Assembly (NCBI RefSeq): GCF_024298965.1
Contig: NZ_CP085193.1
Location: 11,470,001-11,534,000, forward strand
Direction of reading: 5' to 3'
From: Streptomyces rapamycinicus NRRL 5491
GTDB lineage: Bacteria; Actinomycetota; Actinomycetes; Streptomycetales; Streptomycetaceae
DNA length: 64,000 nucleotides
In this document: positions 24,232 to 64,000 of the stretch, in pieces
Layout of the letters: every line of letters starts with the position of its first letter
How positions within the stretch are numbered: the first letter of the stretch is position 1
Position numbers and translations under genes: made by a program
The notes under the pieces: generated by a model
What the model saw: the letters and a program-made list of their open reading frames with translations, nothing else
What the model was told of the DNA's origin: nothing
Databases searched by the model: none

Positions 24232-25482
24232 TCAGCCGGCCGGCCGTCCGGACTCATGGCGGCGGGACAGCGTGCGCAGGGTCGGGCTGACGGTGGCCAG
24301 GACGGCCGCGGCGGCCATCCCCGCCGAGCAGAGCAGGATGGCCCGGTCGCCCGGCAGGGCCTGGGCGAGCGATCCGCCCAGCGCGGGGCCTGCCGCGCCC
24401 GCGGCACCGCAGGCCAGGACGAGTGTGCTGGTGAGCCTGCCGCGCAGCTCGTCCGGGGTGCGCAGCAGTTGGTCGGTCATGATGGCGGTGTTCGCCGTCG
24501 GCGGGAACAGCGCCATCAGGGCGAACAGCACCCCGATGAGATAGCCGCTGTCCATCAGCACGGTGACCGGGGCGAGCACGGCCAGGGCCCAGAACACCGC
24601 GATGATGCCGCCGTACGGGCCGAGTCGCCGGTGCAGTGCGGGCGCCAGCAGCGCGCCCGCCACCCCGCCCACCCCGAGCATGGCCGCCATCACGCCGACC
24701 TCCCCGGAGGGCACCCCCCGGGATTCGGCGAGCACGATGACGACGAGGTAGAAGGCGCTGAAGAACAGGTTGAGCACCACCGCGCACACCACCGTGACCC
24801 GGATCCGGCGCTCCCGCCACACCCACCGCAGCCCGGCCAGGGCCTCCCGGCCCAGCGGGCCCACCCCGTCAGCGGACCGCTCGCGCCGGGGCAGCCGGAC
24901 GAAGAGCAGCGCGAAGAAGGAGAGCGTATGTGTCACGGCGTCCACCAGGAAGGGCACGAACCGCCCCACGGCGAACAGGAACCCGCCGGTGGCGGTGCCC
25001 GCCAGCTGCCCCATCGAGGCCCGTGCCGTGTTCATCGCCACCGCCGTGGGCAGATGCTCGTCCGCCACCAGGGCGGGCAGCGACGCGCTCTCGGCCGGTT
25101 CGAAGAGCGCCGCGCTCGCCCCGAACACCGCCGCCACCACGACCATGTGCCACACGGTGGCCGCGCCCGCCCACACGGCGGCCACCAGGCTGATGGCGGA
25201 GACCGCCTGGGCCGCCTCGCAGCCCAGCATGATGGCCTTGCGGTCGTAGCGGTCCACCAGGACGCCCGCCGGGAGCCCGGCCACCATCTGCGCGGCGGCG
25301 ATGGTGCCCATGACCAGACCGGAGGCGGCGCCCGATCCGGTGAGCGCGAGGACCAGCAGCGGAAACGCGATCAGCGCCGTGTGGAAGCCGAACTCCGAGA
25401 GCGCCTGACTGCCCCACAGCAGCCGGTAGTCCCGGTTGTGGGACAGCGGAACCGGCGGCGACACCGGCGGGGCGGCGGTCAT
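24232..25482 (-). CDS. MFS exporter of the NRPS operon (MFS_3/EntS-like)
   Basis: Twelve-helix major facilitator of 416 aa in the cytoplasmic membrane, resembling EntS-type peptide/siderophore exporters. Motif A appears as [15 protein letters not shown] between helices 2 and 3, and RLPRRER begins the central cytoplasmic loop. The ATG overlaps the NRPS B stop as ATGA (25482-25479), so translation is coupled to the synthetase and the protein is the best candidate for exporting the peptide or providing self-resistance. The C-terminus is a short basic tail. The direction of transport is inferred from family and context. Confidence 0.92.
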
Positions 25483-28400
25483 ACGGAGCCCCGGCAGTCC
25501 CCGGCGATCCACCGCAGGGCCTCCGCGAAGTCCCCGGCCACCGCCTCCACGGTCGCCCTCTCGTGCACATCGGGGCGGTAGCGCCAGGTGAAGCCGAGCC
25601 GGCCGTCCTGCACCGCGCCCACCACCTCCAGCAGATGGGAGCCGCCCTCGCGCGGATCGTGGTCCTGGCCGAACGAGCCGTGTTCGGCGTGGACCAGACC
25701 GCCCTGGGACTCGGCCGACCGGGCGCCCCACTGGCCCAGGTAGTTGAACACGATCTGCGGTCCGGCGCCGTGCCGGGACAGCCGCTCGCGCAGCTCGGGC
25801 GGGCCGAAGACGCGCAGCGCCCCGAAGCCGAAGCCGTTGCCGGGGACGGTCCGCAGCCGCCGCCGCACCGACTTGACCAGCCCCCGCCAGTCGGCCGGCC
25901 CGCCGTCGGGGAGGTCCGGCAGCTCGAAGGAGACCGGATACATGGTGGTGAACCAGCCCACCGTACGGGAGAGATCGACACCGTCCAGGACGTCCTCGCG
26001 CCCGTGGCCCTCCAGCTCCACCGACACCCGTTCCCGGCCCGTCCAGCGGGACAGCGCCAGCGCGAGGGCGGCGAGCAGCACATCGTTGATCCGGGTGCGG
26101 TAGGCGGTGGGCGCCGAGCGCAGCAGCGCCTCGGTGTCCCGCTCGCCGAGCTCGACCGGCACCGTACCGATCCCGGGTCCGGGCGTGGCCACTTGACGGT
26201 CGACCGGCAGCGGCCGGGCGTCGAGGGCCTCGCACCAGTGGTCGGCCTCGTGGTCCAGGCCGCCCTCGGCGACATGCTCCGCGAGCCGCCGCGCCCAGTC
26301 GCGGAAGGCGGTGGTCTTGGTGCCGAGGTCCACCGGTTCGCCCCGCACGCCCTGCTGATAGGCGATGTCCAGATCGTCCAGCAGGATCCGCCAGGACACC
26401 CCGTCGATGACCAGGTGGTGCGCGGTCAGGAAGAGGAACGGCCGCCGGGCCTCGCCGAAACGGAACAGCGCGGCCCGCAGCAGCGGCCCCCGGCCCAGGT
26501 CGAAGCCCGCGTGGAGGGCGTCGGCCGCCTTCTCCATCGCCGCGTCCGCCTCCCGCGCCGGCAGACCGGACAGGTCGTGGCGGTCCAGGACGGCGCCGTC
26601 GCCATCCGGTTCCGGGACGTGGCCGCGCCACTCGCCGCCGTCCTCGGTGAACCGGGTGCGCAGCGCGTCATGGTGGACCAGGAGCGACGCCAGCGCCCCC
26701 TCCAGCGCCTTCTCGTCCGGCTCCTGGTGCAGCTCGAGCAGCGTGGACTGGTTGAAGTGGCGCGGATTCACGGTGTGGGTGGCGAAGAACCAGCGCTGGA
26801 TCGGGGTGAGCGGAAGCGACCCGGTCACCGGCTCCGCACGGCCCTCGTCCCGTTCGGCGGTGGCCACGGTGGCGAGCGCGGCCACCGTCTGATGGGCGAA
26901 CAGATCCTTGGTGGTCAGCCGCAGCCCGGCCTGCCGGGCGCGGGAGACCACCTGGATGCTGAGGATGGAGTCCCCGCCGAGCTCGAAGAAGTTGTCCTCC
27001 ACGCCCACCCGCGCCAGACCGAGCACATCGGCCCAGATGTCCGCGATCCGGCGCTCCATCGGGGTGCGCGGGGCGACATGGCCCGCACCGGAGGTGATGG
27101 GCGCCGGGTCCGGATCGGGCAGCGCCCGGCGGTCCACCTTGCCGTTGGCCGTGAGCGGAAGGGCGTCCAGAACGGCGAACGCCGACGGCACCATATGGGA
27201 CGGCAGGGTCCGCCCCAGGACGTCGCGCAGCGAGGCGGCGGTCGGCGAGGTACCCGGCGCCGGGACGACATAGCCCACCAGACGCTTCCCGCCGGAGGGC
27301 CGCTCCGGGGCCGGGGCGGTCTCCCGTACGGCGACCACCGCTTCCCGCACCTCCGGGCTGCGCCGCAGCGCGCTCTCCACCTCGCCGAGTTCGATCCGGA
27401 AGCCCCGCACCTTGACCTGGTCGTCGGCCCGGCCCAGGAACGTGAGCTCACCGTCGCCGGTCCACCGCACCACATCGCCGGTGCGGTACATCCGTCCGCC
27501 CGCCGGGCCGAACGGATCGGCCACGAACCGCGCGGCGGTCAGCCCCGGGCGGCCCAGATAGCCCCGCGCCAGCCCCGCGCCCGCCACATACAGCTCCCCG
27601 GCCACGCCCACCGGCACCGGGCGCAGCGCGTCGTCCAGTACGTAGACCCGGGTGTTCGGGATCGGCCGGCCGATCGGCGGCACCCCCGACCCGGCGGTCA
27701 GCGGCCCGGACCAGGTGCTCACCACCGTGGCCTCGGTCGGGCCGTAGGAGTTGACCATCCGCCGGCCCGGCGCCCAGCGGTCCACCAGCTCCGCGGAGCA
27801 GGCGTCGGCGCCGACGATCAGGGTCCGCAGATCCGGCAGCCCCGCCCGCCGATCCGCCTCCTCCACGGTGGCCAGCGCGGCCGGGGGGATCAGCGCATGG
27901 GTGATCCGCTGCCCGCCGAGCACCTGGGCCAGCCGCTCGCCCAGCAGTGGGCCCTCGTCACCGATCACCAGCGCCGCGCCACGGGGCAGCGAGACACACA
28001 GCTCCAGGACGGAGGCGTCGAAGCTGGGGGAGGAGAACTGCAGCACCCGGTCCCCGGCCCGCACGTCGTAGTGCGCGGCCGCGGCGGCCGAGAAACCGGC
28101 CAGCCCCGCATGGGTGACCACGACCGCCTTGGGCACACCGGTGGAGCCGGAGGTGTAGATGACATACGCCGGATGGTCCGGCGTCAGGCCACGGAGTGGC
28201 GGCGGCCCGGCGGGGCCCGCCTCGGCCCACACCGAGGCCGCGTCGTCGAGCACCACCGAGGGCGCGGCGTCGCGCAGCATGAACGCCACCCGCTCCTTCG
28301 GATAGCCGGGGTCGACCGGCAGGAACGCACCGCCCGCCTTCGCCACGGCCAGCTGCGCCACCAGCATCTCCACCGAACGCGGCAGCACCAGCGCCACCAG

Positions 28401-29950
28401 CCGCTCCGGCCCCACGCCCCGGCCGATCAGCCGGTGCGCCAGCCGGTTCGCGGCCACCTCCAGCTCGGCGAAGGTGAGATCGCCCTTCCCGTACCGCACG
28501 GCCGTGGCATCCGGCGAGACGGCCACCTGCCGCTCGAACAGTTCGCGCAGCGTGGCCCGCTCCACCTCCAGCCGGGTGTCGTTCCACTCGACCAGGGTGC
28601 GCCGCAGCTCGGCCGGGGTGGTCAGGGGCAGCGCGCCCACCGGCCGCTCCGGATCCTCGGCGATCCCGGCGAGCAGCGCCCGCAGGGCCGTGCCCATTCG
28701 CTCCACCGTCGAGGCGTCGAACAGATCGGTGCTGTAGCCGATCAGCCCGCGCAGCACACCCTCCTCGGCCTCGGCGAACTCGAAGGTGAGGTCGAAGGCG
28801 GCGGTCCGGGTGTCGAGTTCCACGTCCGCCAGCTCCAGACCGGGCAGCTCCAGCCCCCGGCCCAGGGCGTTCTGGAGCACCACCATCACCTGGAACAGCG
28901 GTGTCCGGCTGGTGTCCCGCACCGGCCGCACCTCGTCCACCACCCGCTCGAACGGCACGGACTGATGGGCGAAGGCGTCCAGGACGGTGCCGCGCACCTC
29001 GGCCAGGAAGTCGCCGAAGCGGGTGTGCGGATCGACGGTGGAGCGCAGTACCAGGGTGTTGACGAAGAAGCCGATCAGCCGTTCCACCTCGGGGCGTTCG
29101 CGTCCCGAGGTGACGGTGCCCACGGCGATGTCCCGCCCGCCGGACAGCCGGGCCAGCAAGATCTGGGCCGCCGCCACCAGCGTCATGAACAGGGTGGTGC
29201 CCCGCGTCTGCCCGAACTCCTTGAGGCGCGAGCTCACCCCGGCGGGCACCGTGAACTCCACCGTGGCGCCGTGCTTCGTCCGCACCGCCGGGCGGGGCCG
29301 GTCGGTGGGCACCTCCAGCGGCGGCACCCCGACCAACTGCCGTTTCCAGTAGGTCAGTTCCTCATCCGTCCGGGGAGCGGAGAGTTCGGTGCGCTGCCAG
29401 GCGGCGAAGTCCGCGTAACTCACCGGGAGCGGGGGCAGCGCCGCGGGCTCACCGCTCAGCGCCGCCCGGTACAGCTCCCGCAGATCGCCGGTGAGCACAC
29501 CGGTGGACCAGCCGTCCGTGATGATGTGGTGCAGGGTCAGGCTCAGCATGTGCTCCTGGGGGCCGAGCCGGATCAGCCCGGTCCGCAGCAGCGGGCCGCG
29601 CCGCAGATCGAACGGGCGCGCCCGTTCGTACGCCAGCAGCTCCCGCAGCTCCGCCTCCCGCTCGGCGGCGGGCAGATGGGACAGGTCGTACGGGTCGAGC
29701 CGGATCTCCCAGGGGCCGTGCACGATCTGCACCCCACGGCCGTCCACCGCGTCGAAGGTGGTCCGCAGCGACTCGTGCCGGGCCACCAGCGCGGTCAGCG
29801 CCGCACTGAGCGCGGCCACGTCGAGGGCTCCCCGCATCCGCAGTGCCAGCGGGGTGATGTACTCGGCGCTGTCGGGGGCGAAGGAGTCCAGGAACCACAG
29901 CCGCTGCTGCGGATACGACAGCGGCAGCTCGCCGTCCCGGGCCACCGGTG
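25479..29950 (-). other. NRPS module 10 (C-A-T-E), last module
   Basis: L-accepting condensation domain (HHIITDGWS), an adenylation domain with code read as DALLIGSVV (hydrophobic type, same as module 1, substrate not resolved), a carrier with [11 protein letters not shown] and a complete epimerase ([27 protein letters not shown]). The chain therefore ends in a D-residue. The protein ends about 30 residues after the last epimerase motif. Confidence 0.85.
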
Positions 29951-32900
29951 TGATCGGGGCGGGCCGGTCCGCGCCCCGGCCGTCCGCGCCGTCGAGCGCC
30001 TCGGCCAGGGCGGCGACGGTCGGATGGGTGAACACCAGACGGGGTGACGGCTCCACCCCGAGCACCTCCCGCAGCCGTGAGGTGAGCCGGATGGAGAGGA
30101 TCGAGTCGCCGCCGAGTTCGAAGAAGTTGTCCCCGGCGCCGACGCGTTCGACCTCCAGCACCTCGGCCCAGACCGCCGCCACGGCCCGTTCGGCCCCCTC
30201 GCGCGGCGCCCGGTAGGGCGTACGGCGGGTGTCAGGACCGGGTGCGGGCAGCGCCGCGCGGTCCAGCTTCCCGGTGGGGCCGAGCGGCAGCGCCTCCAGC
30301 GGGACGACGGCCGACGGCACCATGTAGTCCGGCAGCCGCTCGGCCGCGTACGCCCGCAGTGGGTCACCCTCCACCGGGGCATCGCCGGCGGCCACCAGAT
30401 AGGCCACCAGCCGCTTGCCACCGGGGCCGTCCTCCCGGGCCACCACCGCGACATCCGCCACCTCGGGGTGCCCGGCCAGCACGCCCTCCACCTCGCCCGG
30501 CTCGATCCGGAAGCCACGGACCTTGACCTGGTCATCGGCGCGGCCGAGGAACTCCACCGTGCCGTCCGGGCGCCGTCGCGCCAGATCGCCGGTGCGGTAC
30601 ATCCGCTCCCCGGCGGGCGCGTACGGATCGGGGAGGAAGGCCGCCGCGGTCGGTCCTGGGCGGCCGAGGTAGCCACGGGCCACCCCCTCCCCGGCGACGA
30701 AGAGCTCGCCGACCACACCCGGCGGCACGATCCGCATCCTGGAGTCCAGGACGTGGACCCGCGTGTTGTCCAGCGGACGGCCGATCGGCACCACCTCGGG
30801 CACCTCGTCGGCGCGGGACATCGGGAAGTACGTGGCGAAGGTGGTGGTCTCGGTCGGCCCGTAGCCGTCCACCACGGTCAGCCCGGGGCAGCGCTCCAGC
30901 ACCCGGCGCACCGCGGCCGCGGGCACCACGTCGCCACCGGTCCACACCTCGTGCAGCCCGGTGAAACAGTCCGGCGCGTCCCCGGCCAGCAGCCGGAACA
31001 GCCCGGCGGTCAGCCAGAGACCCGTCACCTTCTGCTCGGCCACCAGTCGGCGCACCACCGCGGCGTCCAGTTCGCCCGATGTCACCACCACCCGGCCACC
31101 GTTCAGCAGCGGCACCCACATCTCGTAGGTGGCGGCGTCGAACGCCACCGGCGAGTGCAGCGGCACCCGCTCATGTCCGCCACCGGCGAAGGCACGGTCC
31201 AGGGCGAGCGCCGCCACATCGCGATGGCGCACCCCCACGGCCTTCGGCACACCGGTCGACCCGGAGGTGAACATCACATACGCCAGCTGGTCCCGGTGCA
31301 CCGGCACCGCCGCCACCACCGGCCCGCCCTCCCGGGCGGCGGCCACCTCCTCCGGTGTCAGCACGACCGCGGCGCCGGCCTGGTCCAGCAGCGTGCGCCG
31401 CCGGTCGCGCGGGGCGCGGGCGTCCACCGGTACGTACACCGCACCGGCCCTGACGACCGCGAGCTGGGCCACGACCAGCTCCACCGACCGGTCCATGAGC
31501 AGCGCCACCCGGTCCTCGGGACGCACCCCGGACCGCAGCAGATGACCGGCTAACCGGCCCGCCCACTCGTCGAGTTGGGCGTAGCTGAGCGACGTGGCGC
31601 CGTCGGTGGCGGCCACGGCGTCCGGGGCCCGGTGGACCCGCTCGGCGAACAGCTCCGCGAGCGAACCCTCCGGCAGCGGCCGGGCGGTGGCATTCCACTC
31701 GCCCGCCGCCCGCAGGCGCTCCGCCTCCGTCAGCAGCGGCAGCTCGTCCAGCGACCGCCCGGCGCCGTCCGCGATGCCGGTCAGCAGCGTCTCCAGATGG
31801 GCCGCCGCCCGATCCACCGTGGCCGCGTCGAACAGCGCCGGATCGTAGGCGAGGTCGAAGCCCAGCCGGTCGCCGAGATAGGCGCGCAGACACAGCGGGA
31901 AGCTGGTGGAGTCCTCGGCCCGCACCTCCCGCACCCGGATTCCGGCACCGGCGGCCGACGCCTCGTCGAAGGGGTAGTTCTCGAACACCATCATGCTGTC
32001 GAAGAGCGCCTCACCGGCCGGGACCGCGCTGAGTGCCTGGATCCGGGGGAGGGCGACGAAGTCGAAGCGGCGGGACTCGCTCTGCCGCTCCTGGAGCTCC
32101 CGCAGCCACGCCACGACCTCACGGCCGCCCTCGGCCACGGCCCGGGTGGGGACCGTGTTGATGAACATGCCGACCATCGTCTCCACGCCGGGCAGCCCCT
32201 CCGGACGGCCCGAGACGGTGGTGCCGAACACCACGTCGCGCACCCCGCCGTACCGCGACAGCAGCAGCGCCCACGCGCCCTGCACCACCGTGTTGACCGT
32301 CAGCCCGCCGCCGCGCGCGGTCTCCCGCAGCCGGGCGGACACCTCATCGGTCAGCTCCAGCCGGGTCAGCGCGGTCGAGGTGGTGCGATGCGCCTCCCGG
32401 GGCGGCCGGTCGTACGGCAGCGGTGTGCGGGTGCCGAACCCCGCCAGCACCTCGCGCCAATGCCGCTCCGCACGCTCGTGGTCCTGCTCGCGCAGCCAGC
32501 GCAGGAAGTCCCGGAAGGCCCGGCGGGCGGGCGGCCGGGGCGAGCGCCCGGCCACGAGGGCCGCGTAGGTCTCGCACACCTCGGCGAAGACCTGGCCGGT
32601 GCTCCAGCCGTCGAGCATCAGATGATGCGAGGTCCACACCAGCATGACCTCGTCATCGGGCAGCCCGGCCACCGCGATCCGGCTCAGCGGGGCCGAGGTG
32701 AGCTCCATCCCGGCGGCGCGGTCCTCGGCCAGCAGCCGCCGCAGCGCCTCCTCCCGCGCGGATGGCGTCAACTCCCGCCAGTCCAGCCGGACGGTGGGCA
32801 GATCGGCCCGGCGGTGGACGACCTGGACCGGCTCGGCGAGCCCCTCCCAGCGGACGGAACTGCGCAAGCCCGGTGTACGGTCCACCACCCGCTGCCAGGC

Positions 32901-35900
32901 GGCCGCGAAGGCGTCCGGGTCGGCGATCCCGCCGATCCGGATGGCGATCTGGTCGAAGTAGGCGCCACCGGTGGCAGCGCTGTCCACGAGGCCGTGGAAG
33001 AGCATGCCCGCCTGGAGCGGGGTCAGCGGATACACGTCCTCCACCGCGCCGCCGTCACCGGCGATCAGATCCACCTGCCGCTGGCCGAGCCGGGCGAGCG
33101 GGAAGTCGGACGGGGTGCGCCCGCCCGCGCCGGGCTCGGCGCAGTGCGCGACGATCTCCCTCAGCGCGGCCAGACAGTCGTCCGCGACCCGGCGCACGGT
33201 GGCCTCGTCGTACATCCGGGCCGGATAGCTCCAGCCCAGCTCCAGCCGCCCGTCCTGGACCGCCCCGGTGACCTCCAGCAGACACGGGCGGGTCTCCCCG
33301 GGAGCGGCGTCCTGGCCGGTCACGGGGAGGGCCGCGCGGTACAGGCCCGGGGCGCTTTCGTCGATTGCCCCTACGTCCCACTGGCCGTGGTAGTTGAAGA
33401 CGATCTGCGGCGACGGACCGCCCCGCGGCTCCCCGGCCGGGGAGCCCCCGGGGGCCAGATGGCGCAGCGCTCCGTGGCCGAGCCCGTGGTGCGGAACGGC
33501 CCGCAGCTGCTCCTTGACGGACCGGAGGGTGTCGCGCCACCCCGCCCCGGCGTCGACGGCCAGCGCGAGCGGGTACTCGGCGGTGAACCAGCCGACCGTA
33601 CGGGACAGATCCAGATCCTCGAAGAGGTCCTCGCGGCCGTGTCCCTCCACGCCGATCAGCACCGTGTCCCCGCCGGTCCAGCGCGCCAGGCTCCGGCCGA
33701 GCGCGGCGAGCAGTACGTCGTTGATCCGGGTCCGGTAGACGCCGGGGACCCGGCGCAGCAGCGCCTCGGTCTCGGCACGGCCGAGGACCGTGGTCACCGT
33801 GGCCGCCGTCTCATGGGTGTTGGGGCCCTCGCGGTCGACGGGGAGCGCGGCGGGCGCGGAGCGCGCCACGCCCGTCCAGTACGCCAGGTCGCCGTCGAAC
33901 CCGCCGGAGCGCACATGGTCCGCCAGCCGGACGGCCCACTGGGTGAAGGCGCTGCTCGCCGGGGGCAGGGTGGCCGCGCCACCGGCGGCGGCGCCTCGGT
34001 AGGCGGTCTCCAGATCGCCGAGCAGGATCCGCCAGGAGACGCCGTCCACCACCAGATGGTGGGCGGTGAGCAGCAACTCGGACGCCTGCCCGGGGCCGAA
34101 GGTGAACAGCAGCGCCCGCAGTACGGCCCCCTCGGCGATGTCCAGCCCCGTCTGGGCCGCGACCGTGGCCTCCCGTACGGCTCCGGCGCGTGCCGCGTCG
34201 TCCAGACCGGACAGGTCGTGCCGCTCCAGGACGCCGCCGGGGGCGGTGGGCAGGATCTCCTGGCGCCACCGCCCGTCGACGACCAGGAAGCGGGTGCGCA
34301 GCGCGGCGTGGTGCGCCACCAGGGCGTCCACCGCCTGCCGCAGGGCGGCCTCGTCGAGGTCGCCGGTGAGCTCCAGCCGGTGGCTCATGGTGAAGTGGTG
34401 CGGGTCGCCGGGCCGCCGCCCGTCCAGATACCAGTGCTGGATGGGGGTCAGCGGCGCCGCCCCGGTCGCCGCCCCGGCCACCGCCCCGGCCGTCTCGGCG
34501 AGCGGCCGCCGCCCGGCCGTCTCGACGCTCAGCGCGAGCTCCGCGATGGTCTGGTGGCGGAAGACGTCCTTGGAGGTGAGCGTCAGTCCGGCCCGGCGGG
34601 CGCGGGAGACGATCTGGATGCTGAGGATCGAATCGCCGCCCAGGGCGAAGAAGTTGTCCTCCACCCCCACCTCGGGGACGCCCAGCACCTCGGCCCACAC
34701 GCCCGCCAGCACCGTCTCGGCCGGGTTCCTGGGCGCCACATGCGGCGAGCCCCGCTCGGGGCGGTCCGGGGGAGCGGGCAGTGCGCGCCGGTCCACCTTG
34801 CCGCTGTCGGTGCGGGGCATCCGGTCCAGCGTCACGAAGGCGGCCGGGACCATGTAGTCGGGCAGGGTGCGCTTGAGCAGCGCGCGCAGCTCCACCGGAT
34901 CGGGGGAGCCGGCCGAGTCGCCGGAGCGGGTCACCAGATAGGCCACCAGCCGCCGGTGGCCGGTGTCCTCGCGGGCCACGACCACCGCCTCCTGGACCGC
35001 CTGATGGCCCAGCAGCGCGGCCTCGATCTCGCCGGGCTCGATCCGGAACCCACGGACCTTGAGCTGTTCATCGGCGCGGCCGAGGAACTCCAGCGTCCCG
35101 TCCGCCGTCCAGCGCGCCCGGTCGCCGGTGCGGTACATCCGGCCGCCGGGAGGGCCGTACGGGTCGGCGGTGAAATGCGCCGCGGTGAGCCCCGGGCGGC
35201 GCAGATAGCCGCGGGCGACCTGCGCCCCGGCCAGATGGAGTTCGCCGGGGACGCCGGGCGGCACCGGCCGCAGCGCTCCGTCCAGGACGTACGCCCGCAG
35301 ATTGCGGCCGGGGCGTCCGATGAGCGGCCGGTCACCGAGACCGGCCAGGTCGCCGTAGACCGCGTCCACGGCGCATTCGGTGGGCCCGTAGAAGTTGTAC
35401 GCCGCCACGCCCGGCACCGCGCGCAGCTCCCGCCACAGCGCCGCGCCGAGGGCCTCGCCGCCCACCATGACGATCCGCGGGCGGTGGCGGTCCCCGGCGA
35501 ACAGCCCGGCCGCCATCAGCTCATGCAGGTACGACGGGGTGACGTCGAGGAAGTCCAGGCCACGGTCCTCGACCAGCGCCACGAGGGCGGCCGGGTCCAG
35601 CCGTACCGCGTCGTCCACCAAGTGCACCTCCTGGCCCGAGGCCAGGAACACCGCGCCCTCCCAGGAGGTGTCGAAGGAGAACGCGGCGGTCAGCGCCGAG
35701 CGCAGCGGACGGCCCGCCTCGGCCTGGTGCGGTGCGATGAGCCCGGCCCGGTGGTCGAGGCAGAGGTTGACCAGCTGGCGGTGTTCGACGGCGACACCCT
35801 TGGGGCGGCCGGTGGACCCCGAGGTGTAGGTGATGTACGCGGTGTGCCCGGGCAGCAGCGGGGACAGCAGGTCCGCGTCGGTGGGATCGGTGTCCGGCAG

Positions 35901-51800: not shown

Positions 51801-54800
51801 CGGGCCAGCCGGTTGGCGCGCTCGTTCAGCTCCCGGTAGGTCAGCGGCCCGCCGTCGCCCAGCACCGCCACCGCGTCCGGCGTACGGGCCGCCTGCGCCT
51901 CGAACAGCGCGGGCAGTACCGCGTCCGGCGCGGCGGAGACCGGGCCGCTGAAGCGGTCGAGGATGCCGCGCGTCTCGGCCTCGCCGACCAGCGGCAGTTC
52001 GTCCAGCCGCCGCTCCGGATCGGTCGCCATCTCCACCAGCAGATTCCGCAGACAGCCGCCCAGCCGCTCGATCGTCGGGGCGTCGAACGCGTCGGGGTCG
52101 TAGTCCAGGCAGATCGACAGCCGCTCCTCGGGCGCCACCACCACGCTGAGCGCGTAGTTGGTGGGCTCCACATCCCGCTCCTGCCGGATGCCCAGGCCGT
52201 GGGCGGCGATGGCCTCGCTGTCGAACGGGTAGTTCTCGAAGACCACGATGGAGTCGAAGAGGCTCACCCCGCCGGGCACCTCGCTCCAGCCGCCCAGCTG
52301 CGCCAGGGACACGAACTCGAAGAGCCGGGACTCCGACTGGGCCGACTGCAGCTCCCGCAGCCAGTCCAGCAGTCCGCTCTCCCCGGCCACCCGGACCCGG
52401 GTGGGGATGGTGTTGATGAACACTCCGACCATGGACTCGACACCCGGCAGCGCGGCCGGCCGCCCCGAGACGGTGGTGCCGAAGCACAGGTCGTCGGCCC
52501 CGGTGTACCGGGACAGCAGCAGCGCCCAGGCGCCCTGCACCACCGTGTTCATGGTCAGCCCGCCCCGCTGCGCGGTGGTACGCAGCCGGGCGGACTCCTC
52601 GGCGTCCAGCGTGACCCGGTGCGAGCCCGAGGAGGCGCTGCGGTGGGCCTCCGGCTCGGGCCGGTCCCGCGGCAGTTCGGTGGGCGAGGTGAACCCGGCC
52701 AGCGCCGTACGCCAGTACCGCTCGGCCTCCGCCGTGTCCTGCTCGCCCAGCCAGCCCAGGTACTCGCGGAACGGCCGGCGGGCGGGCACCACGGGCGCCC
52801 GTTCCGAGGTCAGCGCCGCATACCGCTCGCAGACCTCGTCGAAGACCTGCGCCGCGCTCCAGCCGTCGAGCAGCACATGGTGGAAGGTCCACACGATCCG
52901 CACCTCGTCGGCGGACAGCCGGATCAGCGCCAGCCGCATCAGCGGCGCCGTGGCCAGGTCGATCCCCTCGGCCCGGTCCTCGGCGAGCATCCGGAGCAGC
53001 TCGGCCTCGCGCCACTCCTCGGGCCGCCGGGTCCAGTCGTGGTGGACGATCCGGAGCGCCGCCCGGTCCGTCACGACCTGGAGCGGCTCCGGGGTGTCCG
53101 CCCACACCAGATGGGTGCGCAGGATCGGATTGGCGTCCACCGTCTGCCGCCACGCGGTGGCCAGCGCCCGCGGATCGCCCGCCCCGGTCAGCGTCAGCTG
53201 GACCTGGTTGACATACGCGTCCGACGCCGGGTCCATCAGCCCGTGGAACAGCATCCCGGCCTGGGTCGGGGTCAGCGGATAGATGTCCTCCACCGCCCGG
53301 CCGTCGGCGGCGATCCGGTCCACCGCGGCCTGGTCGAGCCGGGCCAGCGGGAAGTCCGACGGGGTGCGGCCGCCCGCCCCGGGGCCGGCGCAGTGGCCGA
53401 TGATCTCTTCCAGCGCGCGAAGCATCCCCCGCGCCAGCCCGGCCACCGTCTCCTCGGTGTGCGTCCCCGAGCCGTAGTACCAGGTGATCTCCAGGCACCT
53501 GCGCTCCACCCGGCCCACGACGTCCATCAGATGCGCCCGGGCCGTGTCGGGCGCGGCGTCACCGCCGAGACCGTCCCGTACGGTGCGGACGAGACCGCTG
53601 TCGTCGTCCGCCGCCGACCAGTCGAACTGCCCGAGGTAGTTGAAGCTGATCCCCGGCTCCGCCGCGTCCAGGAGCCCGGAGCCGGGGGAGAGGTGGCGCA
53701 GCGCGCCGTAGCCGATGCCGCGTGCGGGCACCGCCCGCAACTGCTCCTTGACGGACTTCAGCGTCTCGCCCCAGCCGCCGCCCGGCACGTCCAGGGCGAC
53801 CGGATAGAGGCTGGTGAACCAGCCGACGGTGCGGGACAGGTCCACCCCGTCCAGCAGATGCTCCTCCCGGCCGTGGCCCTCCAGGTCCACGGCGATCCGG
53901 CGCCGCCCGGTCCAGCCGCCGAGCACCCGGCCCAGCGCCGCGAGCAGCACATCGTCCACACGGGTGCGGTAGACCTCGGGGACCTGCCGCAGCAGCGCCT
54001 CGGTGCGCTCCCGGTCGAGACGGACGGTGACCGACGCCATGGATGCCACCGTGTTGTCCCCTTCACCGTCCACGGGCAGTCCCGCGGCGCACTCCGCGGT
54101 CACCGCCCGCCAGTGGGGGAGTTCGGCGTCGAAACCACCGGCGGCGGTGTGCTCGGTGAGCTTTCGGGACCAGTCCCGTACGGAGGTGGTGCGTGGGCCG
54201 AGGTCGGCCCGGTTGTCCGTGAGCAGTTGCCGGTACGCGGTGTTCAGATCCTCCAGCAGCACCCGCCAGGAGACCCCGTCCACCACCAGGTGGTGGGCGG
54301 TCAGGAAGAGTGTCGGCCGCTGGCCGTCGCCACGGTGGAACAGCCGCGCTGCCAGCAGCGGGCCCCGCGCCAGGTCGAACCCGGCCTGCGCCTCGGCCAT
54401 CGCCGCGGCCTCGGCGGCCCGGCACTGGTCCGCGTCGAGCCCCGACAGGTCGTGCTCCCGCAGGGGCGCCGGGGCCGTCAGGTCCGGCTGCGGGCAGTAC
54501 TGTCCCGGGCCTCCGTCGGCGCCGGGCCCGAACCGCGTGCGCAGCGCGTCATGGTGGACCAGCAGCGCGTCGAGCGCCGCGCGCAGCGCGCGGAGGTCGG
54601 GCTCCCGCTGGAGTTCCACGACCACGGACTGGTCGAAGTGGCCGGGCCGGTCGGTCCGCATCCCGAAGAACCAGTGCTGGATCGGGGTGAGCGGTACCTC
54701 GCCGGTCACCGGCCCGGTGTCGGCGGCGGGCGTGGCGGTGGGCGTGGTGACGGCTGCGAGCGAGGCGATGGTGGGATGCCGGAAGAGCTCGCGGGGGGTG

Positions 54801-57800
54801 AAGGCCAGCCCCGCCTGCCGGGCGCGGGAGGCCACCTGGATGCTGAGGATCGAATCCCCGCCCAGATGGAAGAAGTTGTCCTCGGCGCCGATCCGCTCCC
54901 GGCCCAGCAGGGTGCCCCAGATCTCCGCGAGGGCCCGCTCGGTGTCGGTACGGGGCGCCACATAGCCCGCCGTCCCGGCCGCCGCCGGGTCGGGCGCGGG
55001 CAGCCGTCGGCGGTCCACCTTGCCGTTGCGGGTGAGCGGCAGCGCGTCGAGGGTGACGAACGCCGAGGGCACCATGTAGTCGGGCAGCAGGCCGCCCAGG
55101 AAGGACCGCAGCTCCCCGGCGTCCGGCACCTCGGCCCCGCCCACCGGCACCGCGTAGCCGGTCAGCAGCGTGCGGTCGCCCACCCGGGAGAGCGCGACGA
55201 CCGCCTCCGCCACGGCCTCGTGGCGGGTCAGCGCCGCCTCGATCTCGCCCGGCTCGATGCGGAAGCCCCGGACCTTCAGCTGGTCGTCGGCGCGGCCCAC
55301 GAAGCGCAGTTCACCGTGGTCGGTCCAGGCCACGATGTCCCCGGTGCGGTACATCCGGGAGCCGGACGGCCCGAACGGATCGGCGACGTACCGCTCGGCG
55401 GTGGCGCCGGGGCGGCCGTGGTAGCCGCGCGCCACCCCGGCCCCCGCGATGTACAACTCCCCGGGGATGCCCGGCGGTTGCGGCTGGAGGGCGCCGTCGA
55501 GGACGTACGTGCGGGTGTTGTCCAGCGGCCGCCCGATGGGCAGCGAGCGCGGCAGCTCCTCCCCGGCGCGGAAGGGGCGCCGGGTGGCGAACGTCGTGGT
55601 CTCGGTGGGCCCGTAGCCGTCCGTCACCGTCAGCTCGGGGCAGGCCGCGAGCACCCGGCGCACCGCGCCCGGGGGCACCGCCTCGCCGCCGGTCCACACC
55701 TCCCGGGCGCCGCGCAGACACTCCGGCGCCTCCTGCGCCAGCAGCCGGAACAGCCCGGCGGTCAGCCACAGGCAGCTCACCCCGTACTCGGCGACCGCCC
55801 GGCGCACGGTGTCCGCGTCCACGTCCCCGGCGGGCGCCAGCACGGCCCGGCCGCCGCGCAGCAGCGGCACCCACAGCTCGTATGTCGAGGCGTCGAACGC
55901 CTGGGGCGAGTGCACCAGCACCCGGTCGTGGTCCGCGAAGGCGCGGTCGGCGACGAGGGCGGCCACATCGCGGTGGCGCACCGCGATCCCCTTGGGCCGC
56001 CCGGTGGAGCCCGAAGTGAACATCAGATACAGGGCGTTGTCGGGGGAGAGCGCCACGCTCGGCGGCCCCGACGGGCTGTCGCCGCCGCCGTCGCCGGGCC
56101 CGGAGACCACGAGCAGGGTCCGCGCGGCGTCCGAGGTGCCCGCCGCCGTGCGCTCCCACGCGCGGTCGGTCAGCAGCACCTCCGCGCCCGCCTCCGCCAG
56201 CACGCTCCGCAGCCGGTCCCCGGGGGCGCGGGTGTCCAGCGGTACGTACACCCCGCCCGCCTTGACGACCGCCAGCAGCGCCACCACCAGCTCCACCGAC
56301 CGGTCCATCAGGACGGCCACCGGGCGCTCCGGGCCGACGCCGTGTCCGATGAGCCGGTGGGCCAGCCGGTTGGCGCGGCTGTCCAGCTCCCGGTAGCTCA
56401 CCGGGCCCGCCTCGCCGTCCAGGGCCACCGCGTCCGGCGCACACCGCACCCGCTCGGCGAACAGCCCGGCCACCGTGGACTCGGGCAGCGGAACGGCGGT
56501 GTCGTTCCACTCCCGGAGCACCTGGTGGCGCCGGGTGGCGGTGAGCGTCGGAAGGTGTGCGGGCGCCCGGTCCGGGGTGTCGGCCATGGCCGTCAGCAGC
56601 ACCGTCAGATACTCCGCCATCCGCCGGGCGGTGGCCTCGTCGAACAGCGCCGGGTCGTAGCCGAGCCGCAGCGCCAGCTCCGCACCGGGGTAGACCACCA
56701 GGGACAGCGGGTAGTTGGTGGTCTCGACGCCGTTCAACTCGCGCAGGGCGAGACCGTGCGCGGCGGCGAGGTCCCCGCCGATCGGATAGTTCTCGAAGAC
56801 CACGATGGAGTCGAAGAGGTTCACCCGCTCGGGCAGACCGGTCCAGGACCGCAGCCGGGTGAGTGGCACGAAGTCGAACCGCCGGTCCTCGGTCTGCCCG
56901 GACTGCACCGCGCTCAGCCAGGACAGCAGGGTGGACCCGGCCGGCACCGTGAGGCGGGCCGGCACGGTGGTGATGAACAGCCCGTTCATCGTCTCCACGC
57001 CCGGCAGCTCCGGCGGCCGTCCGGACACCGTGGTCCCGAAGACCACGTCCTCGCGGCCGGACTGCCGGGCCAGCAGCAGCGCCCAGGCGCCCTGCACCAC
57101 CGTGTTCAGGGTCAGCCCCTCGTCCCGGGCCAGGGCCTGGAGCCGCTGGGTGGTGGCGGCGGGCAGGGTCACGCGGAGATCCTCGGTGGACTCGGCGTGA
57201 TGGGTCTCGGTGGGCTCCCGGTCGTACGGCAGCGGGGTGGGCTCGGTGAGATCGCCCAGCCGGGTCCGCCAGTGCTCCTCGGCCAGGGCCCCGTCGCGCT
57301 CCCGCAACCAGGCCACATAGTCGCCGAACGGGCGGCGGCCGGGCAGCCCGGCGGCCATGGCCGCGCCGGACGCCCCGTCACGCGCCCGTGCGTGGCAGTG
57401 GAAGACGTCGGAGAGCACCTGGAACAGGCTCCAGCCGTCCAGGATCAGATGGTGGAACGTCCACACCACCTGGACCTCGGTCTCCGACAGCCGTGCCAGC
57501 GCCAGCCGCGTCAGCGGTGCGGCGGCCAGGTCCAGGCCGCGCTCCCGGTCCTCGGCGAGGAACCTCCGCAGCTCCTCCCGGCGCTCGTCAGGGCCGGACA
57601 GATGACGCCAGTCGAGCAGGGCCACCGGGATCCGGACCCCGCGCTCCACCACCTGGACCGGCTCGGGAACCCCCTCCCACACCGCGCGGGCGCGTAACAC
57701 CTGGGTGCGGTCGGCGACCTGCTGCCAGGCCGCGGCCAGCGCCGCCGGCTCCGGCACCCCGCCGAGGACGAAGGTGAGCTGCTGGAAGTAGGCCCGCCGG

Positions 57801-60800
57801 TCGTCCTGCGCCAGCGCGTGGAACAGCATGCCCGCCTGGGTGGGGGTGAGTGGGTAGATGTCCTCCACCGTGCCCCCGTTCCCGGCCAGCCGGTCCACGG
57901 CGGCCTGGTCGAGGGCGGCGAGCGGGAAGTCGGACGGGGTGCGGCCGCCCGCGCCGGGCGCGCCGCCGTGCCGGGCGATCTCGCACAGCGCCTCGCGGAA
58001 CTCCCCGGCGAGCCGGGCGACCGTCTCCTCCCGGTGCAGATTCGCGGAGTAGAACCAGGTGAACTCCAGGTCGTCACCCTCGACCCGGCCCACCACCTCC
58101 AGCGGATGCGGGCGCGGCGAGGTGGGGTCGGCGTCCAGGGCCAGCTCCCGGTGCAGACCGCGGAAGAGCCCGTCGGCACCGCCCGGCGCCCCGAACCGGC
58201 CCAGGTAGTTGAAGCTGATCCCGGCGGTGGGGCCGTCGGGGAGGCCCGCGCCGTCGAGCAGATGGCGCCGCACCCCGTAGCCAAGACCACGCCGCGGCAC
58301 GGCCCGCATCTGCTCCTTGACGGACTTGAGGACCTCGCCCCAGCCGCCGTCCGGGAGGTCGAGCGCCACCGGGAAGCGGGTGGTGAACCAGCCGACCGTA
58401 CGGGACAGATCCAGGTCCGCGAAGAGCTCCTCGCGGCCGTGGCCCTCCACGTCCACCGGCACCCGGGCGCGCCCGGTCCAGCGGCGCAGCACCCGGGCCA
58501 GGGCGCTCAGCAGCACGTCGTTGACCTGTGTGCGGTAGACCTCGGGAAGCGTCTGGAGGAGTGCGGCGGTCTCCTCCGGGCCGAGCCGGACGGTGACCGA
58601 CCGGGCCGAGGCATAGGTGTTCTCCGCCTCGTGCACCCCGTCCGACCCGTGCAGGTCCGTAGGCAGCGAGGGGTCGCAGGCCCCGGCCAGGCCGGTCCAG
58701 TACGCCTCCTCGTCGGCGAACCCGCCCTCCCCGGCATGGGTGTTGAGCCGCAGCGCCCAGCGGCGCAGCGGGGAGGACTTCGGGGGAAGCCCGGCCCCCT
58801 CGCCCCGGGCCGCCCGACGGTAGGCGCTGTCGAGATCCTCCAGGACGACGCGCCAGGACACCCCGTCCACCACCGCGTGATGGATGGTGAGGTGGAGGAC
58901 CGGGCGCGGCCCGGCGTCCCGGTCCAGCACCGCCCGCATCAGCGGCCCCTCGGCCAGGTCGAAGCGGCCCAGGTGCGCGGCGCCGGTGTTCTCGAGCGGT
59001 ACGCGGACGGCCGCCGCGTCCTCGATCCACTGGTACCAGCCGCCGCCCCGGCGCCCGAAGCGGGAGCGCAGGGCGTCATGGTGGTCCACCAGCGCGTCCA
59101 GGGCGTGGCGCAGCGCGTCCTCGTCCACGTCCTCGGGCAGCACCAGCGAGATGGTCTGGTTGAAGTGGCCGGCCCGCTCGGGGTCGGCGGTGAACAGCCA
59201 GTGCTGAATGGGGGTCAGCGGCAGCTCCCCGGTGGCCGTGTCGTCCCCGCCGGAGACGGGCTCGGCCGGGGCGGTGGTGGTGTCCAGGTGCAGGGCCAGC
59301 GCGGCGATCGTCTGATGGCGGTAGACATCGCGCGAGGTGACGGCGAGCCCGGCCTGGCGTGCCTGGGAGACCAGCTGGATGCTGAGGATCGAATCGCCGC
59401 CGAGGGAGAAGAAGTTGTCCTCCATCCCCACGCGGTCCACCCGCAGGATCCGGGCCCAGACCGTCGCCAGGGCCCGCTCGGTGGCGGTCCGGGGCGCCAC
59501 ATAGCCCGGTGCCGCGGCCTCGGCCCAGTCCGGCTCGGGGAGCCGGCCGCGGTCCAGCTTGCCGTTGGGGTTGAGGGGCATCCGCTCCAGGACGACGACG
59601 GAGGCGGGCACCATGTAGTCGGGCAGCGAGCGCCGCAGGAACCGCCGCAGCCCCGCCGGGTCGGGCCCGGCGCTCGCGGCGGCCACCACATAGGCGATCA
59701 GCCGCTGGCGGCCGTGCGTCTCCCGGGCGACGGCCGCCGCCTCGGCGATGTCCGGATGGCGCAGCAGCGCCGTCTCCACCTCGCCCAGTTCGATGCGGAA
59801 GCCGCGGATCTTCACCTGGTCATCGGCTCTGCCGACGTACTCCAGCTGACCCTCGCCGTTCCAGCGGACCAGGTCACCGGTGCGGTACATCCGGCTGCCG
59901 GGCGGCCCCAAGGGGTCCGCGAGAAAGCGGTGGGCGGTCAGCCCGGGCCGCCGCAGATAGCCCCGGGCCAGGCCCTGCCCGCCCAGATACAGCTCACCGG
60001 TCACCCCGGGCGGCACCAGCCGCAGCGTCGGGTCCAGGACGTACGCGCGGGTGCCCGCGACCGGGCGGCCGATCGGCGGGGCCTGCGCGGGCGCCCGGCC
60101 GTCGCAGAACCAGCCGGTGGCGTACACCGTGGCCTCGGTCGGTCCGTAGAGATTGGCGATCCGGCAGGACGGCATGGCCTCCCGGATGTCCCGTACGGTC
60201 TGGGCGGGCAGCGCCTCGCCCGCCAGTACGACGGTCCGGGCCCAGTCCGCCGGGCGATCCCCGCCCAGCAGCCGGGAGAACACCGACGGCACCCCGCTGA
60301 GCAGCCCCGTCGCCCGCGGCCGCCCCTCGGGATCGGTGAGGGCGAGCAGGTCGCGCACCACCTCGACGCTGCCGCCGGCCAGCAGCGGGCAGAGGATCTC
60401 GAAGACCGACACATCGAAGTTGAGCGAGGTCGAGGCGACCACGTCGGTCAGCCGCTCCCGCCCCAGCTCCGCCTCGGCCCAGGCCGCGAGCCCCGCCACG
60501 GCGTGGTGGGTCACCACCACGCCCTTGGGCCGGCCGGTCGATCCGGAGGTGTAGATGACATAGGCGGGATGGGCCGGGAAGAGCGGCCGGAGCCGTTCGG
60601 CGTCGGTGATGTCGCCGTCCGCGAGCCCGCCCAGCCGGGCGCGTACCTCCGGGTCGTCCAGCAGCAGCGGCGCGGCGTCCGCGGGCAGGCAGCCGGCCGC
60701 CCCGGTGGTGGTGAGGACGGTCGAGGGCGCGGCGTCCGCCAGCATGAACGCGATGCGCTCGGCCGGGTATCCGGGGTCCACCGGCAGATATCCGGCGCCC

Positions 60801-63800
60801 GCCTTGAGCACCGCCAGCAGGACGACGACGAGCTCGGCCGAGCGGGGCAGGGCGAGCGCCACCAGCCGCTCGGGACCGGCACCCCGGTCGATGAGCAGCC
60901 GCGCCAGCCGGTTGGCGCGCCGGTTCACCTCGTCGTAGGAGAGGCTGGTGTCCCCGCAGGTCACGGCGGTGGCCGCGGGCCGCCGCGCCACCTGGGCGGC
61001 GAAGAGGCCGGGCAGGGTGGCCTCGACCGCGGGCCGCTCCGGCCCGTTCCAGGCGTCGAGCATCGCATGCCACTCGGCGTCGGCCAGCATCCGCAGCTCG
61101 ATCAGGGTGGCGCCCGGATCGGCCACCATGGCGGTCAGCAGCCGGTGCAGATGCCCGGCCATCCGCTCGATCGTGGCCGGGTCGAACAGATCGGAGTTGA
61201 ACTCGACGGTCAGCCCCAGCGAGCCGTCGTCGCGGGGCAGGAACTCCAGCACCAGGTCGAACCGCGCGGCCGGGCGCGGCAGGGAGTGCTCGGTGATCCG
61301 CACACCTCCCGCCTCCTGGCCGGGCACCATGGCGCTCTGCTGGACGACCAGCGCCTGCACCAGCGGATTGCGGCTGGGGTCGCGGCGCGGGGCCAGCTCC
61401 TCGACGACGCGCTCGAACGGCAGCCGGTCATGGCTGAAGGCGTCCAGCACCGTCTCGCGCATCGCGTCCAGGAACCGCTCGACGGTGCTGTCCCCGTCCA
61501 CATCGGCGCGCAGCACGAGGGTGTTGACGAAGAATCCGGCGACCGACTCCAGCTCCTTGCGGTGGCGCCCGGCGGTGACGGTGCCGAAGGCGATGTCCCG
61601 CTGGCCCGAGTAGCGGGAGAACAGCACCGCGACGGCGGCCGCGAGCAGGGTGAACCGCGTGGTGTCCCGCTCCCTGCCGAGCCGGGCCAGCTCCGCCACC
61701 AGCTCGGCGGGCAGCTCACGGCGGTGCACCGCGCCCGCCGTGGTGCGCACCGGCGGGCGCGGGCGGTCGGTGGGCAGCTCCAGCGTCCGCATCCCGGCCA
61801 GCCGGCCCCGCCAGTACTCCAGATCGGCGTCCGCACCGGCGGTGGCGGGACGGCTCCGCTCCCACACCGCGAAGTCCGGGTACTGGAGGGCGGGTTCGGG
61901 GAGATCGGCGTCGGTGCCGGACACCTCGGCGGCGTAGAGCGCGGCCAGTTCGCGCACCAGCAGCCCCACCGACCAGCCGTCGGTGACGATGTGGTGCTGC
62001 GCCAGCAGCAGGATGTGCTCGTCGTCTGCGAGCCGGATCAGCAGCGCCCTGGTCAGCGGGCCCTGTCTCAGGTCGTAGGGGCGGTTCAGCTCGGCGGTTA
62101 GCGTGGCGTCGAGCGCCTCGGCGCGCCGCCGCGCCGGATGCCCGCCGAGGTCGAGCCGCTCGAGCGGTACGTTCCCGTGCGCGGCCACCCGCTGCACTCC
62201 GTGCCCGTCCACGGTGGCGAAGGTGGTGCGCAGGGCGTCATGGCGGGCGGTGAGCCGGTCCAGCGCCCGGCGCAGCGCGGCCGCGTCCAGCGGTCCGTCG
62301 AGCCGTAGTCCGGCCCCGGTGTTGTACTCGGTTCCGCCGGAGGTCAGATCGTCCAGGAACCACAGCCGCCGCTGGGCGGAGGACAGCGGCAGCGGACGGT
62401 CGCGCGGCGCGGGCGGGATCGGCGCCTCGGGCGTCTCGGCCGCCGTGGCGGGCAGCCTGCCGGCCAGCCGCGCCACCGTCCTGGCGTCGAGCAGATCGCG
62501 CAGCGAGAGCTCCACGCCCAGCTCGGCGCGGATCCGGGTCAGCAGCCGCACTCCGAGGACGGAGTCGCCGCCCAGGCCCAGGAAGTCGTCCTCCACGCCC
62601 ACGGTGTCCACCGGCAGCACCTCGGACCAGATGCGGGCCAGGGTCCCCTCGGCGGGGGTGCGCGGGGCGATGTGGCGCGAGTCGCCGTCCGGTGCGGAGC
62701 GCGGGGCGGGCAGCGCCTCCCGGTCGATCTTGCGGTGCGGGGTGAGGGGGAACGCGTCCAGTACGACGTAGGCGGACGGCACCATATGCGCCGGCAGCAC
62801 CCGGGCCACCGCGGCGCGCACCTCCGCGGCCTTCGGCGGGGCCCCGCCGCCGGGCGGCACCAGATAGGCGACCAGCCGCTTCTGACCGGGCTCGTTTTCC
62901 CGCACCGTGACCACGGCGGATCCCACCCGGGGGTGGCGGGCCAACGCCGCCTCCACCTCGCCCAGTTCGATGCGGAAGCCGCGTATCTTCACCTGGTGGT
63001 CGGCCCGGCCGAGGAATTCCAGTTCGCCGTCGGCGTTCCAGCGGACCAGGTCACCGGTGCGGTACATCCGCGAGCCGGGCGGGCCGAACGGGCAGGCGGT
63101 GAACCGCTCGGCGGTCAGCCCCGGCCGGTCGAGATAGCCGCGGGCCAGCCCCGCGCCGCCGATGCACAGCTCTCCGGTCACCCCGACCGGCACCTGCCGC
63201 GCCGCCTCGTCCAGTACGAAGACCCGGGTGTTGGGCAGCGGACGGCCGATCGGCGGGGCGCCGGTCCCCGCCGCCAGGGCGTCCGTCCAGGAGGCCACGA
63301 CCGTGGCCTCGGTCGGGCCGTAGGAGTTCACCATCCGCCGCCCGGGCGCCCACAGGTCCACCAGATCGGCGGGGCACGCCTCCGCGCCCACGATCAGCGT
63401 GCGGAAGTCGGGCAGCCCGTCGTGGAGCTGCTCCGGGGGCACGGTCGCGAGCGCCGCCGGGGGGATCAGGGCATGGGTCACCCGCCTCTCCCGCAGCACC
63501 GACGCCAGTTCGGCGCCCAGCAGCGGCCCTTCCGGGGGCACCACCAGGGCCGCCCCGGCGAGCAGGGAGGAGCACAGCTCCAGGACGGAGGCGTCGAAGC
63601 TGGGCGAGGAGAACTGCAGCACCCGGTCGCCGGGCCGGACCCGGTAGTGGGCCGCCGTCGCGGCCGAGAAGTTGCCCAGACCGGCATGTGGCACCAGCAC
63701 GCCCTTGGGCACGCCCGTGGAGCCGGAGGTGTAGATGACATACGCGGGATGCTCGGGGCACAGCGGGCCGAGCAGCTCCCCGCGGCCGGGCGCGTGGTCC

Positions 63801-64000
63801 GGGCCCGCCCCGGCCCCCACCTCACGGATCCACGCCGGGTCGTCCAGCACGGCCACCGGCCGGGCGTCGGCCAGCATCATGGCCCGGCGCTCCCGGGGGT
63901 GCGCGGGGTCGATCGGGAGGTACGCGCCCCCCGCCTTCGCCACCGCCAGCTCGGCCACCACCAGTTCCGCCGAGCGGGGCAGCACCAGCGCCACCACCCG
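45590..64000 (-). CDS. Nonribosomal peptide synthetase A (5' end outside window), five modules visible
   Basis: Assembly-line enzyme with 6136 residues in the window; the frame is open to the right edge, inside an adenylation domain. Visible order: A(partial)-T, C-A-T-E, C-A-T-E, C-A-T-E, C-A-T. All carriers keep LGGDS and all condensation domains keep HHxxxDG. Condensation types fit: L-accepting in module 2, D-accepting in modules 3, 4 and 5, each after an epimerase. The C-terminus after the last carrier is an acidic helix ([15 protein letters not shown]) suited to dock on the basic N-terminus of NRPS B. The stop is 11 nt before the NRPS B ATG, so the two are co-translated. More modules may lie upstream, so the module numbers used here are relative. 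Confidence 0.97.
48802..53370 (-). other. NRPS module 4 (C-A-T-E)
   Basis: D-accepting condensation domain (HHVLLDGWS). The code reads DVFSVAIVY, one change from module 2; I do not recognise the substrate with confidence. The carrier is [11 protein letters not shown]. The epimerase has [11 protein letters not shown], with alanine in place of the glycine of HHxxxDG; EGHGREE and FNYLGQQ are intact. Confidence 0.78.
51266..51319 (-). repeat. 54-bp exact direct repeat, copy in module 4
   Basis: Identical to 60371-60424 in module 2. It encodes the substrate-pocket stretch [18 protein letters not shown], which holds three specificity residues. Confidence 0.95.
53371..57943 (-). other. NRPS module 3 (C-A-T-E), Val-like
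   Basis: D-accepting condensation domain (HHLILDGWS). The code DAYWWGGTF equals module 9 and suggests valine or a similar branched residue. Carrier [11 protein letters not shown] and intact epimerase ([26 protein letters not shown]) give the D-form. Confidence 0.8.
57944..62420 (-). other. NRPS module 2 (C-A-T-E)
   Basis: L-accepting condensation domain (HHIVTDGWS), consistent with no epimerase in module 1. The code reads DVFSVALVY; the substrate is unassigned. Carrier [11 protein letters not shown] and epimerase [26 protein letters not shown] are complete, so a D-residue is expected. Confidence 0.8.
60371..60424 (-). repeat. 54-bp exact direct repeat, copy in module 2
   Basis: Identical to 51266-51319 in module 4, 9.1 kb apart; both cover the same adenylation-pocket segment. 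Confidence 0.95.
62421..64000 (-). other. NRPS module 1 (A partial, T) at the window edge
   Basis: The window begins inside the adenylation domain, just before [20 protein letters not shown]. The code DALLIGSVV is of the hydrophobic class and identical to module 10. The carrier [12 protein letters not shown] is not followed by an epimerase, so an L-residue is passed to module 2. Whether a condensation or starter domain precedes it is outside the window. Confidence 0.82.

Follow-up and report, generated by a model that had tools for sequence, protein, structure and literature searches.

A ten-module, epimerase-terminated peptide synthetase line in Streptomyces rapamycinicus with an adjacent SurE-like thioesterase, predicted to release a cyclic decapeptide

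Since 2018, descriptions have appeared of non-ribosomal peptide synthetase (NRPS) lines of four to ten modules that end in an epimerase, carry no thioesterase (TE) and are released by a stand-alone TE of the penicillin-binding-protein (PBP) type (PMC7459860, PMC11735501). Here we analyse a locus of this kind in Streptomyces rapamycinicus NRRL 5491, whose genome is a single contig of 12.47 Mb. It comprises two NRPS genes, NRPS A and NRPS B, and a SurE-like TE gene, and reaches beyond the right-hand end of the window, by which we mean the whole 64,000-nucleotide stretch analysed (contig positions 11470001-11534000). Positions above 64000 extrapolate the window's numbering, and the DNA of the right-hand flank was read as a separate stretch, L004.

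The surugamide lines and SurE resemble this locus in combining an epimerase-terminated NRPS without a TE with a stand-alone PBP-type TE, and in starting with an L-residue and ending with a D-residue. Their products are cyclic octapeptides and the decapeptide surugamide F/cyclosurugamide F, so that a ten-residue substrate is common to one case. Unlike in surugamide, one line rather than two stands beside the TE here, and this TE, which scores 250 bits to SurE, lies in a separate and supported clade. Desotamide/wollamide (DsaJ, WolJ), ulleungmycin (Ulm16) and noursamycin/curacomycin share the release logic and the enzyme family, but they are hexapeptides, as against ten modules here. The desotamide family as a whole takes in cyclic peptides of 6-10 residues. 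Mannopeptimycin (MppK) and pentaminomycin/BE-18257 (PenA) are also released by PBP-type TEs and have smaller rings than the one predicted here. Mannopeptimycin is glycosylated; no glycosyltransferase was found in a Pfam scan of ten proteins of the locus.

Biffamycin BifB likewise uses the SurE fold for release, but as a TE fused in cis and for a tetrapeptide (PMC13285481), whereas the TE studied here is a separate gene. As related in PMC7459860, the network of Thankachan et al. (2019) placed TE-less NRPSs of 4-10 modules beside a SurE homologue in 166 of 1421 actinobacterial genomes, and the present TE clade probably lies within that network. An earlier, sequence-only reading of the window had proposed the release logic of these families with a larger chain. 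That description is true in a relative sense, as SurE also serves a decapeptide line (PMC11735501).

The features that carry our argument are the following.

45590 to about 64252, minus strand: NRPS A, 6220 aa, modules 1-5; its ATG, at extrapolated position 64252, lies 252 bp beyond the window.
25479-45593, minus strand: NRPS B, 6704 aa, an intact frame, modules 6-10.
25482-26873, minus strand: the last 464 residues of NRPS B, comprising the linker after the tenth carrier domain and the tenth-module epimerase (TIGR01720, PF00668 and motifs).
64389-65750 (extrapolated; contig 11534389-11535750; L004:4389-5750), minus strand: the PBP-type (SurE-like) TE, 453 aa, PF00144, with a GTG start assumed.

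We propose that the locus forms one operon for a ten-residue non-ribosomal peptide, which would be released by the PBP-type TE as a head-to-tail cyclic product. Taken as a whole, co-transcription of the genes included, we give this reading a probability of about 0.83.

The domain order was read with hidden Markov models (HMMs) made from the line itself. In adenylation (A), carrier (T), condensation (C) and epimerase (E) domains, NRPS A runs A-T / C-A-T-E / C-A-T-E / C-A-T-E / C-A-T and NRPS B runs C-A-T-E / C-A-T / C-A-T-E / C-A-T / C-A-T-E. Both frames are intact, and the stop of NRPS A overlaps the start of NRPS B by 4 bp. In NRPS A the first domain is of the A type, matched by its HMM from residue 50 onwards; a T domain and the C domain of module 2 follow, so that module 1 has neither a starter C domain nor an epimerase, as in other lines released by PBP-type TEs. 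The sequence-only reading had counted at least ten modules; the figure is exactly ten, since an A domain is the first of NRPS A and the ATG lies so close outside the window. Epimerases follow modules 2, 3, 4, 6, 8 and 10, and all six carry HHxxxDxxSW, EGHGRE and VGWFT. The C domains that follow an epimerase begin PLTPxQxG(M/L)(L/V)FH (5/5) and the others LPLSxxQxRLWFL (4/4), motifs that we take to mark D- and L-accepting domains, respectively.

NRPS B ends in an epimerase, with no TE, reductase or terminal C domain after it, as the sequence-only reading had stated and as Pfam, TIGR01720 and motifs now confirm; lines released by PBP-type TEs share both the final epimerase and the missing TE. 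The post-epimerase model TIGR01720 scores 74.6 bits (cut-off 74.2) and reaches residue 461 of the last 464, a PF00668 match extends equally far, and the motifs of this terminal epimerase are intact, VGWFT among them. The epimerase thus occupies the protein up to its C-terminus; the sequence-only reading had it end about 30 residues earlier. In the Pfam scan, NRPS B held C/E, A and T domains and no thioesterase.

Beyond the right-hand end of the window, where a SurE-type gene had been suggested, one lies directly upstream of NRPS A, 136 bp away and on the same strand. PF00144 (197 bits) is the only Pfam match of this 453-aa protein, consistent with a stand-alone member of the PBP/beta-lactamase superfamily. 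Searched against solved structures, it matched SurE (6KSU; E = 5.6e-73, 250 bits) and Ulm16 (8FEK; 5.1e-60, 207 bits) over their full length, well ahead of the next structure, esterase IS11 (2.5e-31, 112 bits); within its own genome it has 19 other matches, which score at most 93 bits, against 250 for SurE. Its Ser72/Lys75, Tyr160/Asn162, His303 and Arg445 align with SurE residues, which we take, by the SurE numbering assumed here, to be the catalytic residues and the arginine corresponding to Arg445. These positions are invariant in 21 aligned rows (the protein itself and 20 of the 120 matches listed). Gly237 aligns with Gly235 in the SurE pocket, where residue size sets the space for the C-terminal D-residue (PMC11735501).

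In a tree of 35 rows, 26 rows, the TE among them, form a clade with support of 100/100, and 33 rows including SurE and Ulm16 separate from two PF00144 paralogues of the same genome, also at 100/100; these two are the only outgroup rows, the root is a midpoint root, and SurE, Ulm16 and three other rows sit on long branches. The alignment with SurE extends to residue 447 of 453 and covers the C-terminal domain, which in PBP-type TEs is a lipocalin-like domain of eight strands; here an AlphaFold (AF2) model, of low confidence at a mean pLDDT of 61.7, places eight strands at 373-449. Searched with Foldseek, that low-confidence model returned four SurE chains and then Ulm16 as its top matches. On its sequence, the protein is assigned to the SurE/Ulm16-type family of PBP thioesterases, and the proposal of release by a SurE-like stand-alone enzyme gains support from the adjacent same-strand gene and from SurE as its best structural match.

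The gene arrangement recurs widely. The TE clade (at least 55% identity) is present in 43 of 392 sampled Streptomyces genomes, own genome included, and the next match stands at 49%; at a looser threshold, 117 of the 392 have matches. By our reading of the list, matches spanning both domains (query residues ~20-450) occur in 63 genomes, 43 of them belonging to this clade, a count that leaves out one weak full-span match (G333, 7.9e-39), while none of the other lower matches extends past about residue 418. As the query was this TE, distant PBP-type TEs may be undercounted. The proportion of 63/392 agrees with the 'about 15%' of strains cited in PMC13285481. Across a class-wide sample, 3 of 394 genomes, own included, carry the TE at 55% or more.

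The 80 named loci are the best of 234 confirmed, and 76 of them have NRPS domains downstream of the TE on the same strand; in the other four the contigs end within the TE or no more than about 650 bases after it. The order A-T-C-A-T-E-C-A was parsed in 59 of the 80, and the remaining 21, judged as a group, look like cut contigs, split domain matches or frame breaks. Nine relatives could be read to the end, and all nine share the ten-module layout and the placement of the epimerases (eight with an identical parse, G109 with doubled A and E matches). Judged by the TE gene, Streptomyces iranensis (96%) and S. endocoffeicus (95%) are closest among the named relatives, alongside other members of what we take to be the S. 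violaceusniger group.

One copy of the TE-NRPS arrangement (L062, AP026074.1) lies on plasmid SNP1 of Streptomyces nigrescens HEK616, showing that a second replicon can carry the line. Separately, SurE-like matches were seen inside long frames in L024 (G057:C1:5585884-5587167), G369, G396 and G653, of 3098, 3526, 1733 and 2769 aa, respectively; the match in G057 closes an NRPS that reads C-A-T-E-C-A-T and then 488 residues. These are probably PBP-type TEs fused in cis, as in biffamycin.

Based on this organization, module 1 of NRPS A would load an L-amino acid, and NRPS A would hand a pentapeptide to NRPS B, which would add five residues. With six epimerases, the predicted configuration is L-D-D-D-L-D-L-D-L-D, and the finished chain would be bound to the final carrier as a D-aminoacyl thioester. 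The PBP-type TE would then take the chain onto Ser72, and attack by the free N-terminal L-amine would yield, by cyclisation and not hydrolysis, a head-to-tail cyclic decapeptide, which the major facilitator superfamily (MFS) protein encoded after NRPS B may export. In the ring closure by PBP-type TEs, an L-residue at the N-terminus is linked to a D-residue at the C-terminus (PMC11735501, PMC7459860). Given this rule, and with an epimerase in module 10 but not in module 1, cyclo(L1-D2-D3-D4-L5-D6-L7-D8-L9-D10) would be expected.

Specificity codes were extracted at A-domain positions that we presume to be the standard ones. They read, from A1 to A5, DALLIGSVV, DVFSVALVY, DAYWWGGTF, DVFSVAIVY and DALLIGAVV, and from A6 to A10, DTLDMGFID, DFWSVGMVH, DTWDMGFVD, DAYWWGGTF and DALLIGSVV. 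The third letter of A6/A8 hinges on the placement of a one-residue gap, and the fourth letter of the module-2 type was S in one alignment and L in a second, S being kept by analogy with the Thr domain. Residues 1, 5 and 10 share a code (5 with one change), as do 2 and 4 (one change), and 6 and 8 are a similar pair. The A3/A9 code equals the published Val code (DAYWWGGTFK, PMC9113097; DAYWWGGT, PMC6920865), and A7 is close to the published Thr code (DFWNVGMVHK, PMC9113097), supporting a prediction of Val at positions 3 and 9 and Thr at 7.

A full-text literature search by code returned nothing for residues 1, 5 and 10 or for 6 and 8, and a search of solved structures with one A domain found no substrate. 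For 2 and 4, the full-text search turned up only similar piperazic-acid codes: DVFSVA[IL]VY and DVFSVA[AS]YAK have six letters in common, and the next three differ. PF04299, presumably the family that holds piperazate synthase, has a match in 8 of 10 genomes with the line and none in the other two. We rejected piperazic acid at modules 2 and 4 as unlikely, because the last code letters differ and two of ten line-bearing genomes lack a PF04299 match. The same ten codes, with small changes, recur in the nine complete relatives, at TE identities of 95 to 55%; in the 59 parsed loci, module 1 has two code variants, module 2 six and module 3 three.

Several points weigh against the proposed cyclic decapeptide. 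The HMM parse is self-derived and hence no independent classification, which leaves the motif reading, Pfam and TIGR01720 as the independent signs. The structure model of the TE is weak at its mean pLDDT of 61.7, the named locus L127 has no A-domain match in module 2, six of the nine complete relatives lack the MFS gene in this form, and codes support three of the ten residues (3, 7 and 9). In addition, SurE gave mostly linear surugamide F, a ten-residue peptide, in one study (PMC7459860). Hydrolysis is possible for that reason: the TE may mainly release a linear decapeptide ending in a D-residue. We regard this outcome as unlikely, as module 1 supplies an L-residue and the last module a D-residue, the arrangement for ring closure.

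It is highly improbable that a distant TE or spontaneous cyclisation releases the chain while the PBP-like protein does something else, such as self-resistance as a D-peptidase or penicillin-binding protein. The genome does offer 39 PF00975 and 27 PF00144 matches, and behind SurE, Ulm16 and two further structures the next scores include those of a D-peptidase and a D-amino acid amidase. However, the protein groups with SurE and Ulm16 against its two paralogues with full support, aligns with both across the C-terminal domain too, and has NRPS domains downstream in 76 of the 80 named loci. A canonical TE on another NRPS of the cluster, which would have spoken against the sequence-only proposal, was looked for and not found. 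The closest PF00975 match (11.421 Mb) is separated from the operon end by about 72 kb and sits in a frame with no condensation-domain match, and there is none inside the operon; a canonical TE nearby was accordingly rejected.

Transfer to a further NRPS with a D-accepting C domain, with the decapeptide as an intermediate, had been named as the alternative and is scarcely credible: epimerase-terminated NRPS proteins can pass their chain on in trans, but the nearest of the genome's 93 PF00668 matches outside the operon lie at ~11.000 Mb (~490 kb) and ~12.243 Mb (~700 kb), the line stops at the same epimerase in all nine complete relatives, and a PBP-type TE is encoded alongside, so we rejected it. 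Given these distances, the cluster offers no cis TE and no additional NRPS to take over the chain, and release by the SurE-like TE as a cyclic decapeptide is the reading we retain.

The neighbouring genes are as follows.

24232-25482, minus strand: MFS exporter, 416 aa, PF05977/PF07690.
23919-24122, minus strand: MbtH-like protein, 67 aa, PF03621, 79.6 bits.
22904-23767, minus strand: S-adenosyl methyltransferase, PF04672, beside the operon.
21470-22660, plus strand: cytochrome P450, beside the operon.
65795-67030 (extrapolated; L004:5795-7030), minus strand: copper-amine-oxidase-like secreted protein, PF01179, 147 bits.
L004:7045-7854: basic, twin-arginine-like secreted protein with no Pfam match over the cut-off, preceding the copper-oxidase-like gene.

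Downstream, the MFS gene overlaps the stop codon of NRPS B (ATGA). After NRPS B, the MbtH gene is kept at 77.6-97.0% in all nine complete relatives, and the MFS gene is close in three (80-99%), at 36-38% in three and without a match in the examined DNA of three. The operon terminator named in the sequence-only reading did not materialize: no intrinsic terminator after MbtH was found in 22700-25600, and the sole terminator-like site there, 24983-24995, lies inside the MFS gene. In two close relatives (G096, G055) the P450 and the methyltransferase of the window recur next to the line at 89-97%, but they have no match in the examined DNA of G069; they are possibly tailoring enzymes, or merely neighbours.

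Upstream, the gene before the TE differs between loci. Directly before the TE stands a P450 in 63 of the 80 named loci (one partial, one split) and a pair of secreted-protein genes, the second copper-amine-oxidase-like, in 13 (one partial); L118, L126, L127 and L128 gave no match upstream of the TE to any of the four query proteins. The 13 copper-oxidase-type loci are those with a TE identity of at least 78%, and the genome of the window is of this type. The copper-amine-oxidase-like protein lacks the usual N-terminal domains. Aligned to 1QAK, it keeps what we take to be the cofactor-forming tyrosine and three copper histidines, and it has Gly at the presumed catalytic-aspartate position (Ala in the aligned 1QAK chain). 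Amine oxidation is uncertain because this position holds Gly.

In the open literature searched (titles and the starts of abstracts, with most subscription journals outside it), we found no named product for this line. For S. huangiella, an antiSMASH 78-kb NRPS cluster is labelled 'surugamide A, D, 19%' in a paper that names S. iranensis 19 times (PMC12502620), and we suspect that this cluster is the same line.

In summary, a prediction from bare sequence was borne out: the kind of system is known, and this particular line is common in Streptomyces. New here are the clade count (43 of the 63 genomes with a full-length SurE-like protein among 392 sampled), the near-fixed codes in nine lines, and the P450/copper-oxidase difference upstream. 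We raise as a tentative idea, itself rather doubtful, that the commonest SurE-type line of Streptomyces makes one cyclic decapeptide whose core has stayed almost the same throughout Streptomyces and in Catenulispora-like genomes, which would suggest a common function as a signal, ionophore or developmental factor, not an arms-race antibiotic, with lineage-specific tailoring by P450 or copper oxidase; on this idea, the core would extend to Kitasatospora, Streptacidiphilus and Streptantibioticus, as far as modules 1-3 read. A natural PBP-type TE for a ten-residue substrate would allow ring-size control to be compared with that in SurE, PenA and Ulm16. If no product is known, a single structure would explain a cluster found in about one in nine Streptomyces species.

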